Shown: in pieces, positions 60,529 to 64,000 of the stretch | Position numbering within the stretch: position 1 is the stretch's first letter | Layout: each line of letters starts with the position of its first letter | Source of the DNA: Bacteroidota bacterium | GTDB taxonomy: Bacteria > Bacteroidota > Bacteroidia > UKL13-3 | Direction of reading: 5' to 3' | DNA length: 64,000 bases | NCBI GenBank assembly: GCA_027487835.1 | Contig: JAIYCU010000009.1 | Location: 1-64,000, forward strand | Program-made: the position numbers and the translations under genes | Notes under the pieces: model-generated | What the model was told of the DNA's origin: nothing | What the model saw: the letters and a program-made list of their open reading frames with translations, nothing else | Database searches by the model: none

Positions 60529-61467
60529 ATGAAAAGAATAATTGTTTTATTGGCCATTTTAGGATTGGGATTACTATTGAATGCGCAAGACCTGGAGCCT
60601 AAAGGGAAAATCAAAGAGCCAAAAACCTTTAAAGACAAGGCGCATAATACTTTAATGTCTAAGCGACTTAAAGAGGCGACCCAACAGCGCGATTCGCTTT
60701 ATTTGTTAACCCAGCTTTATCAAAAAGATACCACTGAAAGAGGCATTCAATATAGGGCCTTGGATTCTGCCCATACTCATTGGTTGGCCCAATACGCAGC
60801 CTTAGATAAAAAGTACCTTGGCCTGCAGCAAGATTATACCGAAATGCATAATAAGTACACGCAACTTATACAGAGCAGTCTTAGCAAAACAGAACAATTA
60901 AACCTTGCCTTGAAACAAAAATCGGAGGAGTTGCAAGAGCGTGAGCGTAAATTAGCAGAAATGCAGGCCATGTTGCGTAAGCAAGACAGTTTAACCCAAG
61001 CCTTAAACAGCATTATTAAGAAGGCCTTATTGGGCTTTAATTCTGATGAGATTACGGTTGAAATGAAAAATGGGAAGGTATATGTTTCTATGACCGATAA
61101 ATTATTATTTAGAAGTGGCAGTGCTGATGTAGAAGACAAAGGGAAAGAGGCGATTAAGAAGTTGTCGGATATCCTAAACAAGAATACAGATGTTAGCATA
61201 ACCATTGAGGGACACACTGATAATGTGCCCATTAAAACAGCCATTTTTAAGGATAATTGGGATTTAAGTGTGGCAAGAGCCACTACCATTGTTAGGCTTT
61301 TAGATGAAACTTATAAGGTAGATGCTAAACGTTTAACCTCAGCAGGAAGGGGAGAATATGTGCCTAAGGCTACAAATGAAACTGCCGAAGGCAGGGCAAA
61401 GAACCGTAGGACAGAGATTATTTTATCACCTAAACTGGATGAGCTTTATAAAATAGTAGGCTGGTAA
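60529..61467 (+). CDS. OmpA-family peptidoglycan-binding protein
   Basis: 312 aa from the ATG at 60529 (MKRIIVLLAILGLG, a signal peptide with cleavage near NAQ). A 40-residue longer reading begins inside the secDF terminator and is rejected. Residues ~40-190 form long charged helices, probably a coiled coil (RKLAEMQAMLRKQDSLTQA). From ~200 the OmpA C-terminal domain follows: LLFRSGSADVEDKG, ITIEGHTDNVPIKTA and GRAKNRRTEII. It binds peptidoglycan in the periplasm. The coiled coil may extend the domain from the outer membrane. Its 3' end overlaps the convergent PAS protein gene by 22 bases. Confidence 0.9.
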   Translation: MKRIIVLLAILGLGLLLNAQDLEPKGKIKEPKTFKDKAHNTLMSKRLKEATQQRDSLYLLTQLYQKDTTERGIQYRALDSAHTHWLAQYAALDKKYLGLQQDYTEMHNKYTQLIQSSLSKTEQLNLALKQKSEELQERERKLAEMQAMLRKQDSLTQALNSIIKKALLGFNSDEITVEMKNGKVYVSMTDKLLFRSGSADVEDKGKEAIKKLSDILNKNTDVSITIEGHTDNVPIKTAIFKDNWDLSVARATTIVRLLDETYKVDAKRLTSAGRGEYVPKATNETAEGRAKNRRTEIILSPKLDELYKIVGW

Positions 61468-62489
61468 TTGCTGATTTTTTCCATTTCTATTAATTCTGCT
61501 TTTGAAGTAATTTCTCGGATGATTTGGTCGAATTGGTCGGCAGAATTTTTTAGGTGGTCTAAGAAAAGCTGTAGTTCATCTTCTTGAATATTATTGTCTT
61601 TAAGAAGATTGATAATGCCCATCATTCTGGCAAGTGGTGCGCGCACTACATGCGATTGGGTCCAGGCAATTTCTCTTAATTTTTCATTTTGTGCTTCAAG
61701 TGCCATTTGGCTTTTAACCCTAGCGGTATAATCAGAAGCAAGGATGACAGCCATTTTCCTATTTTCATGGTCAATTCTATTGCTTCTTACCTCAACATAC
61801 ATCATTTCGCCATTCTTTTTTTGATGTCTAACTACCCCTAAGGCCATTGCATCATTGTTTTCAGCCAATACTTTTTGTAAGATGTCGCTTGTATGCAAAT
61901 GATCTTCTACTGGCTGTAGGCCATAATATTTTAAAGATAAAAACTCCTCTTTGGTATAACCATATTGCCTAAGTGCAGCTTTATTTACATCAATAATTTT
62001 GAGCTGCTCAAGGTCTAACACCCACATAGGTTCTGGGCTAAGTTGGAACAAATCAGAATATCGTTGTTCAGACACTTTGAGTCGGGTAATAATTTTATTC
62101 CGCTCCAAATTGTAGACAATACTTTTATACAAAATGGTGCTATTGAGTTCATCTTTAAGAAGGTAATCCGAGATGCCTAAAGCAATAGATTCAGTTGCCA
62201 AGGCAAAATCTGAGTAGCCAGTTAGCACCACAATTGGAATATTTCCAGCCAAGGCAATTACCTCTTTTATAAGGTCTAAAGGTTTTAAATCTGGTAGGGT
62301 GAGGTCTAGAAAAATTATTTCTATTGTATCTTTATGAAAAACAATTTCATTTTTTGTTTCTCTAAAAGATTTGGTATGAATCAGCGTAGGGTCAAGAATA
62401 AAATCGCCTAAATAATCTTGGAAAAGCGTATAGTCGCCTTGGTTGTCTTCGGCCACAAGAATTTTATAATTGTATACATCTTTTTGCAT
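61446..62489 (-). CDS. REC-PAS-DHp protein lacking an ATPase domain
   Basis: 347 aa. The receiver domain (1-125) has ILVAEDNQGD and phospho-acceptor Asp62 (IFLDLTLPD). The PAS domain (~145-255) has SPEPMWVLDL, DVNKAALRQYGYTKEEF and RHQKKNGEMMYVEVRS. A HisKA-like helix with His280 (IAWTQSHVVRAPLARMMG) ends the protein about 67 residues later, with no N-box or G-box, so no ATPase domain. It could receive phosphate on Asp62 or His280 from another kinase. The obvious candidate is the protein encoded 23 bases upstream, which has an ATPase domain but no acceptor His. Confidence 0.8.
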   Translation of the reverse strand: MQKDVYNYKILVAEDNQGDYTLFQDYLGDFILDPTLIHTKSFRETKNEIVFHKDTIEIIFLDLTLPDLKPLDLIKEVIALAGNIPIVVLTGYSDFALATESIALGISDYLLKDELNSTILYKSIVYNLERNKIITRLKVSEQRYSDLFQLSPEPMWVLDLEQLKIIDVNKAALRQYGYTKEEFLSLKYYGLQPVEDHLHTSDILQKVLAENNDAMALGVVRHQKKNGEMMYVEVRSNRIDHENRKMAVILASDYTARVKSQMALEAQNEKLREIAWTQSHVVRAPLARMMGIINLLKDNNIQEDELQLFLDHLKNSADQFDQIIREITSKAELIEMEKISNYQPTIL

Positions 62490-62512
62490 GGATAAATATA
62501 GGTAAAGGTTGG

Positions 62513-64000
62513 TTAAATTACCTTAGGTATTGAAAAATTGAAAGTACTTCCTTTGTCTGGAATTGAAGTTACCCAAACATTTCCGCCGATGGTTTCCACA
62601 AGTTTTTTTACAATTGCAAGGCCCATGCCTGTGCCTGGGTAGGTATCTTTTGAATGTAGTTTTTGGAAGATGATGAATATCTTTTCAAATGATTCCTCCT
62701 CAATGCCAATGCCATTATCATTCACGGCAAATATCCATTTATCCTCGTATTCAACTCCACTAATAGTAATCATTGGAATTTCTGAAGGCTTTTTAAATTT
62801 AATGGCATTATGAATAAGTTCTTGGAGTATTTTTTTAACACAGTCTTTAAATCCATTCACAAGAGGCAGTTTTTCACAAGTTATTTTGGCATGGCTTTCT
62901 TCAATGCCCTTCTTTTCAAATAGTTTAACTTCTTCAATTAATAAATTTGGGTCAAACCAAACAGCACTTTCTACAATACTTCCTACCTTCGAAAATTCAA
63001 GTAAGTCGAGCATAATTTCTCTCATGTCTTTAGCTCCAGCAGCGGCAAAGTCTATGTATTGATTTCCTTTTTCATCTAGGTTCAAACCATATTTCTTTTT
63101 GAGTTGAGATAGAAAACTACTCACCATTCTGAGCGGTTCTTGCAAATCTCTTGAAGCCACAACTGCAAATTGTTCTAAAGAGGTATTAGATAGGGATAAC
63201 TCATGCGCTTGTTTTGTTAAATTTTTGTTAAGTACTTTTAGGTTTTCTTCATTAAATTTTCTTTCAGAGATATCAGTTCTAATGGCCATATAATTAATGA
63301 TATCACCATCTGCATTTTTAAGCGGAACAATAATAGTATCAACCCAATAATAGGAGCCGTCTTTTCGCTTGTTATGAATTTCGCCTCTCCAAATATTTCC
63401 TTTAATGATGGTTTCCCACATTTGGGTATAATAGCTTTGAGGGTGGTGTCCAGAGCGATTTACGCGCGTGTGTGATCCTATTAATTCTGCTCTTGAATAG
63501 CCCGAAAGTTTTGTGGTTGCATCATTTACATCAACAATATACCCTTCTGTATCGGTGAGCACCATATTGAAGCTTTGTTCAAGTGCAGCTTTGTAATCAG
63601 AAAGTGATTGCAGAGATTCCCTTAGTTTTTTATCGGCTTCTTTTTGTTGAGTAATATTTTTAGCTACTCCAAATTGTATTCTTTCCTCAGGAATGGGTGT
63701 GGCGCTCCAAGCCAACCATACTATTTGGCCTGATTTAGTTATGAATCTATTCTCGAAATATTGGGTAGGCTTTCCATTAATTAGGGTATCATTAATCTCT
63801 AAGGTTTTAAACGTATCATCTGGGTGAATAAACTCATGATAAGGTTTACTTAATAGTTCGGCTTCGGAATAACCTAATATTTCTGTGGCTGCTTTATTTA
63901 TTTTCAGAAAATATCCTTCAAAACTTGCCATACAAATAATGTCAGCTGCCGCATCTAAAATTCTATTATTTTCTTCTTCAGTTTTTTTGCGAGAAATTTC
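62513..64000 (-). CDS. PAS-PAS histidine kinase with Arg in place of the H-box His (partial at window end)
   Basis: Visible from the window end; the frame stays open through 64000 (ISRKKTEEENNRILDAAADI precedes the ATG at 63931), so the protein starts outside. After the ATG: first PAS (1-95, GYFLKINKAATEILGYS), second PAS (~110-225, DVNDATTKLSGYS, RKDGSYYWVDTI), coiled coil, then FAVVASRDLQEPLRMV, where the H-box His is Arg261 (codon 63149-63151), then an intact ATPase domain with ELIHNAIKF, NDNGIGIEE and GTGMGLAIVKK. The ATPase keeps all motifs, so it may act on a partner; the neighbouring DHp protein (23 bases downstream on the same strand) is the likely one. Confidence 0.82.
   Translation of the reverse strand, partial: EISRKKTEEENNRILDAAADIICMASFEGYFLKINKAATEILGYSEAELLSKPYHEFIHPDDTFKTLEINDTLINGKPTQYFENRFITKSGQIVWLAWSATPIPEERIQFGVAKNITQQKEADKKLRESLQSLSDYKAALEQSFNMVLTDTEGYIVDVNDATTKLSGYSRAELIGSHTRVNRSGHHPQSYYTQMWETIIKGNIWRGEIHNKRKDGSYYWVDTIIVPLKNADGDIINYMAIRTDISERKFNEENLKVLNKNLTKQAHELSLSNTSLEQFAVVASRDLQEPLRMVSSFLSQLKKKYGLNLDEKGNQYIDFAAAGAKDMREIMLDLLEFSKVGSIVESAVWFDPNLLIEEVKLFEKKGIEESHAKITCEKLPLVNGFKDCVKKILQELIHNAIKFKKPSEIPMITISGVEYEDKWIFAVNDNGIGIEEESFEKIFIIFQKLHSKDTYPGTGMGLAIVKKLVETIGGNVWVTSIPDKGSTFNFSIPKVI

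Follow-up and report, generated by a model that had tools for sequence, protein, structure and literature searches.

A histidine kinase with arginine at the phospho-acceptor position next to a DHp-only protein: a candidate split kinase derived from a probable Bacteroidota phosphorelay operon

We analyzed a stretch of 64,000 nucleotides (the window) from a Bacteroidota bacterium of the UKL13-3 lineage (GenBank assembly GCA_027487835.1, contig JAIYCU010000009.1, here C39, positions 1 to 64,000), which ends in two adjacent signalling genes on the reverse strand. The upstream gene encodes a histidine kinase that carries arginine where the phospho-accepting histidine is expected (the Arg kinase). 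The downstream gene, separated from it by 23 nt (62490-62512), encodes a 347-aa protein composed of a receiver (REC), a PAS domain and a DHp hairpin, with nothing beyond the hairpin. Since the kinase gene extends beyond the window, we recovered its missing 5' part from the same contig. The complete gene (C39:62513-67870) encodes 1785 aa, in which Pfam recognizes a CheB methylesterase (residues 31-204), CheR (230-483), several PAS domains, HisKA (1565-1630) and HATPase (1678-1783); we read a further stretch between the PAS domains as GAF-like. The CheB and CheR motifs are intact, and the H-box, FAVVASRDLQEPLRMV, has Arg1574 at the acceptor site. An earlier sequence-only reading of the window had already described the pair, and translation and Pfam reproduced all of its coordinates: the genes, the gap, Asp62, His280, the lack of an ATPase domain in 61446-62489, the intact N-box, G1, F and G2 motifs of the upstream protein and the AGA codon in ASRDLQEPLR. 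AlphaFold models built with three sequences reached a mean pLDDT of only 40 and 47 and, being this poor, served for helix limits only. The features of the pair within the window are the following.

61446..62489, reverse strand: REC-PAS-DHp protein, 347 aa, SHxVRAPLA DHp-only family (Pfam Response_reg 2.3e-9, PAS 2e-10, HisKA 3.3e-5, no HATPase)
62148..62462, reverse strand: receiver domain, residues 10-114 of the 347-aa protein (Pfam PF00072)
62304..62306, reverse strand: Asp62, predicted receiver phospho-acceptor (translation)
61716..62066, reverse strand: PAS domain, residues about 142-258 (Pfam)
61467..61706, reverse strand: DHp helical hairpin, residues about 262-341 (HisKA match 279-327; AlphaFold helices 255-297 and 303-341)
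61650..61652, reverse strand: His280, candidate phospho-acceptor, in TQSHVVRAPLAR; the next residue is Val281, not Asp/Glu (translation, alignment)
61533..61535, reverse strand: Gln319, DHp helix 2 of the 347-aa protein (alignment)
62513..64000, reverse strand: C-terminal 495 residues of the kinase; the full 1785-aa protein has the order CheB-CheR-PAS/GAF-DHp-HATPase, and the gene runs beyond the window to C39:67870
62966..63208, reverse strand: kinase DHp domain, residues about 1555-1635, H-box ASRDLQEPLR (HisKA match 1565-1630)
63149..63151, reverse strand: Arg1574, codon AGA, phospho-acceptor position (His in 42/42 aligned relatives)
63026..63028, reverse strand: Asp1615, DHp helix 2 of the kinase (alignment)
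62522..62839, reverse strand: HATPase (CA) domain, residues 1678-1783, N/G1/F/G2 motifs intact (PF02518, 3e-23)
62819..62821, reverse strand: Glu1684, four residues ahead of the N-box Asn (alignment)

The kinase appears to combine a functional-looking ATP-binding domain with the lack of a usable phospho-acceptor, and the 347-aa protein a putative acceptor histidine with the lack of an ATP-binding domain, as would be expected of the two parts of a split kinase. The 347-aa protein would also qualify as a DHp-type histidine phosphotransferase, having a predicted kinase-derived hairpin with a histidine and no working ATPase domain. The phosphatase motif HE/DxxN/T is absent from it, the site reading HVVRA in all three species that carry the pair. 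The 3' ends of its gene and of a convergent OmpA-like gene overlap by 22 nt (61446-61467), which constrains the last codons of both; we therefore rejected the conserved extreme C-terminus, QPTIL, as a sign of function.

Arginine at the acceptor position proved to be rare. In 60 relatives, the motif [ST]xDLQEPL[R] was found 39 times, 36 times with His and three times with Arg; the Arg motifs belong exactly to the orthologues of this kinase, and the two sister genomes showed no other DLQEPLR motif in this search. In the class (395 genomes), HDLQEPL[R] occurs at about 311 sites, spread over 112 genomes (summed from the table), and RDLQEPL[R] in only two kinases; one more match to the Arg pattern (G332) lies off-gene and inside no kinase and was dismissed as a chance match. 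No second independent H-to-R origin was found in these 395 genomes, and a contig scan with a narrow pattern requiring ...LRMV returned only the two sister loci. The genome of the window itself has a His H-box in 23 of the 24 HisKA kinases read, a count that leaves out about seven weaker HisKA sites.

The Arg pair is present in three related freshwater Bacteroidota, the two others being further species of the genus (G007 and G009; JAIYAT010000034.1 and CAMDHZ010000004.1), and all three share the gene order 199-aa gene, Arg kinase, REC-PAS-DHp. Identity of the pair to the two other species is 67-80% (between G000 and G007, 68% overall for the kinase and 79% for the DHp-only protein). An identical Arg and open frames in three assemblies rule out a sequencing error or a pseudogene. 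None of the three Arg kinases shows a defect in the N, G1, F or G2 motif, the H-box apart from the His position is invariant across the three species, and dN/dS between G007 and G009 is 0.10, with the DHp and ATPase domains alike. Since the loss of His predates the split of these species, the ATPase domain has been selectively kept without an acceptor of its own.

Within the kinase gene, residues about 761-1005 (PAS1-PAS2) stand apart in the G007-G009 comparison (L040 against L041): synonymous divergence is near saturation there (pS 0.74 and 0.63) and dS is about 0.2 in most remaining parts of the gene. Recombination swapping sensor modules is the apparent cause. The 199-aa gene lies directly upstream of the kinase and outside the window (C39:67944-68543; L009:11945-12544, reverse strand) and encodes a PAS domain with a DHp-like tail without His. 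It is conserved genus-wide, adjoins aminopeptidase-P-like and HAD genes and mostly occurs without the kinase pair (G002, G003, G010, G013, G015); in G022, a relative of 292 aa ends in a DHp-only tail with His (SHELRRPLAN).

The sequence-only reading had mentioned DHp-only proteins of the SHxVRAPLAR type as known in Bacteroidota. A search for QSHxVRAPLA in 296 genomes of the phylum returned 24 sites in 13 genomes, and in every case the protein stops 55-85 residues past the His with no ATPase motif. Because all 24 sites end in this way, we regard the SHxVRAPLA proteins as a phylum-wide DHp-only family, new here, and not as truncated kinases. Many members stand alone (e.g. in G001 and G006). At 13 loci the family is found beside a kinase that keeps its His, with a receiver between the kinase and the DHp-only protein at 12 of them, and two operon types recur. 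Type (i) (L042, L043, L115, L149, L164, L165, L166) consists of a DLQEPLR PAS kinase with His, a single-domain receiver of about 141-146 aa and a REC-(PAS)-DHp protein, often with another receiver (about 127-132 aa) after it; the middle receiver is missing at L166. In type (ii) (L093-L098), a His hybrid kinase with a fused receiver is followed directly by a REC-DHp protein of about 240 aa and often by a receiver. The kinase-receiver-DHp-only layout matches what a His-Asp-His-Asp phosphorelay would look like and, as all 13 partner kinases keep their His, the ancestral partnership was more likely such a relay than a split kinase. The same 13 loci indicate that the neighbour's presence does not depend on loss of the His, and we rejected the DHp-only neighbour as a general marker of His-less kinases.

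Two further DHp-only proteins are encoded in the genome of the window, one of 558 aa (C41:126047-127723, SHMVRAPLAR) and one of 502 aa (C40:120768-122276, SHIIRRPVAN), the latter adjoining a single-domain receiver. A 1575-aa PAS-rich DHp-only protein of G502 (L158:3883-12010) overlaps an 1145-aa CheB-CheR-PAS protein without a kinase domain, so that CheB-CheR and a DHp-only protein are associated there as at the Arg locus, in another arrangement.

Both members of the Arg pair trace back to the operons described above. A tree of 45 DHp-ATPase cores places the Arg kinases inside a 12-sequence clade (support 98/89) whose other members all come from kinase/DHp-only operons, save one 386-aa kinase of the window's own genome. 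The tree of the DHp-only proteins contains a matching clade of 11 sequences (SH-aLRT 99), and the L165 operon is nearest in both trees, with a support of only 83 for that step in the DHp-only tree. The agreement of the two trees shows that a His-bearing ancestor passed on the kinase and its DHp-only neighbour jointly. The operon receiver is 63% identical between G013 and G034, which keep it; in the three Arg genomes nothing comparable is left, the best match being 31-32% or weaker. The gene context of kinase, receiver and phosphotransferase, present at 12 of the 13 kinase-linked relative loci, is therefore missing from the Arg lineage. On this evidence, Arg replaced the kinase His and the middle receiver gene disappeared in one and the same lineage, and the three Arg kinases are one evolutionary event. 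By the terms of the sequence-only reading, His-less homologues that lack the neighbour as often as they have it would refute the split kinase. This is not what we found: all three known His-less homologues have the neighbour and none was found without it, but because they go back to a single event this carries little statistical weight.

We read the pair as a conserved Bacteroidota phosphorelay operon that has been rewired, and tentatively propose, at somewhat less than an even chance, that the ATPase domain now phosphorylates His280 in trans. The operon encodes a DLQEPLR PAS kinase, a small single-domain receiver and a REC-PAS-DHp protein. In the Arg lineage the kinase His was replaced by Arg and the intermediate receiver gene lost, the ATPase domain remaining intact. 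This domain would then phosphorylate His280 of the co-encoded protein in trans, within a mixed complex, and His280 would hand the phosphate to its own or to another receiver. The result would be a natural HisKA-type split kinase, born from relay collapse. The domain's present target we infer, and we favour His280 because of the co-inheritance of the two genes, the retained catalysis motifs, the normal constraint on the ATPase domain and the lack of another obvious acceptor in the sister species. The ATPase domains of the Arg kinases share an identity of 0.42-0.53 with those of His-bearing operon relatives, a normal value (0.39-0.66 among most His-bearing pairs), whereas the identity of their DHp domains is lower than usual (0.54-0.65 versus up to 0.82). 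The split kinase envisaged by the sequence-only reading is partly supported: an intact ATPase domain under purifying selection and the loss of the receiver in the same lineage speak for it, and a neighbour that is not specific to His-less kinases weakens it.

Conservation in at least 11 of 12 operon kinases singles out 38 DHp columns, and three of these are changed in all Arg kinases, namely the His, the Tyr four residues before it (to Val) and the Arg 41 residues after it in helix 2 (to Asp/Asn). All 42 His-bearing kinases have Arg or Lys at this helix-2 position (Asp1615 here), in contrast to the Asp or Asn of the three Arg kinases. Several observations weigh against phosphorylation of His280 by the Arg kinase. 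The equivalent helix-2 column of the DHp-only proteins is Glu in 32/37 and Gln only in the three Arg species (Gln319 here); the joint change (R to D/N in the kinase, E to Q in the neighbour) was attractive as covariation but was set aside, since it comes from one lineage and could well be coincidence (at a guess, a chance that is low yet far from negligible). The ATPase position four residues ahead of the N-box Asn is occupied by Asn in 37 of 42 relatives and by Glu or His in the Arg kinases. In CpxA, the acid next to the His (Glu249) is the proposed general base, and it is the Asn at this ATPase position that contacts it (PMC3904827). The residue after the His is Asp in the kinases considered here, Val281 in the neighbour and non-acidic in 35 of the 37 DHp-only proteins; the missing acid would fit phosphorylation by a receiver, not by an ATPase domain. 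Furthermore, the perfectly conserved H-box around the Arg suggests that the DHp domain still has a job of its own, and the single origin of the pair means that there is no independent replication. In a more specific version, the four-step relay would have collapsed such that the ATPase domain phosphorylates the former phosphotransferase directly, using the Glu/His four residues before the N-box Asn as general base. A base supplied by this changed residue is possible but speculative, and we consider the version as a whole unlikely.

The kinase might instead not phosphorylate anything and act like DivL, its DHp/ATPase core binding a receiver, plausibly the REC domain of the neighbour, as a sensor or scaffold that couples the CheB/CheR/PAS signals. 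DivL of Caulobacter is likewise a PAS sensor kinase whose acceptor His is replaced in an otherwise recognizable DHp-CA core, which is repurposed to sense DivK~P (PMC4211667), and it is among the solved homologues of the kinase core (4q20, 7.6e-9). The His-less H-box that is otherwise invariant in three species and the altered catalytic-interface residues (Y-4 to V, R+41 to D/N, N-box-4 Asn to Glu/His) would both suit such a role. Because the H-box around the Arg is so perfectly kept, it is nearly as compatible with the data as trans-phosphorylation. However, DivL has Tyr at the acceptor site and binds ATP weakly, whereas the Arg kinases have Arg, a DHp-only neighbour and nucleotide motifs that are, judged from sequence only, all intact, with purifying selection acting on them across an ATPase divergence of roughly 35-40%. 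In addition, the usual receiver partner was lost and not kept. We know of no DHp-only neighbour of DivL. We rate a DivL-like function as rather unlikely, though a serious competitor of trans-phosphorylation.

Two further explanations seem improbable to us. The Arg kinase could form a heterodimer with another, His-bearing kinase and phosphorylate the His of that kinase in trans or damp it, with the neighbour acting as a separate phosphotransferase. At least 23 His-bearing HisKA kinases are available in the genome of the window, and the intact 386-aa kinase of the DLQEPLR type (L009:14551-15711; C39:70550-71710) lies about 3 kb upstream of the kinase gene. The sister genomes lack it at the corresponding place and have no other DLQEPLR motif, so it cannot explain the conservation of the Arg; we rejected it as an obligate partner there, and no other adjacent candidate is left. 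Alternatively, the kinase could be dead and kept for CheB, CheR or PAS/GAF; its ATPase domain would then be a relic, and other kinases would supply the neighbour, an ordinary phosphotransfer protein, with phosphate. The intact CheB and CheR motifs, the common occurrence of solitary DHp-only proteins and the long stem branch of the Arg kinases in the tree would agree with this. A relic is hard to reconcile with a dN/dS of about 0.10 in the DHp and ATPase domains, with nucleotide motifs of which none has decayed in three species, and with an ATPase divergence that is normal for the family.

The individual elements of the proposal have precedents: split kinases, HATPase-less HisKA proteins and His-less pseudokinases are already described (PMC3591291, PMC4211667). 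The HisKA and HATPase domains of EnvZ are active in vitro when separated, and CheA3/CheA4 of Rhodobacter sphaeroides are a natural split (PMC3591291) in which, as in the Arg pair, the ATP-using and the acceptor part of one pathway reside on two proteins, neither complete alone. Unlike the Arg pair, which is of the HisKA/PAS class, has DHp in both proteins and is known from its sequence, CheA3/CheA4 belong to the CheA class, use a P1 (Hpt-type) acceptor and have proven trans-phosphorylation. The inferred ancestral operon resembles the Pak-SdrG-PhyT-PhyR relay of Sphingomonas (PMC5898713) and the systems of Spo0B and ChpT (PMC3433190), in which a kinase, a single-domain receiver, a kinase-derived phosphotransferase and a receiver act in this order. 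These relays, unlike the Arg pair, still have the kinase His and the receiver. A degenerate ATPase-like domain is retained in PhyT and ChpT, but the SHxVRAPLA proteins have nothing beyond the DHp hairpin. The REC-PAS-DHp protein belongs to the broad, recognized class of HisKA proteins without HATPase, which made up 1556 of 42417 in a SMART count (PMC3591291). The same study suggested that members with the HE/DxxN/T motif could be split bifunctional kinases; the His280 protein (HVVRA) does not have this motif. In the literature searched, with most subscription journals outside its scope, we found no description of a His-less kinase paired with a DHp-only protein.

The recurrence of the SHxVRAPLA family in two operon layouts suggests a function for many proteins whose annotation probably goes no further than PAS or response-regulator protein. 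If the proposed trans-phosphorylation is true, the Arg pair would be a HisKA-class counterpart of the CheA3/CheA4 split; as living relatives represent the His as well as the Arg state, the transition would be testable by single substitutions. It would also show how a relay shortens, with a phosphotransferase encoded beside a kinase making the kinase's own acceptor dispensable.

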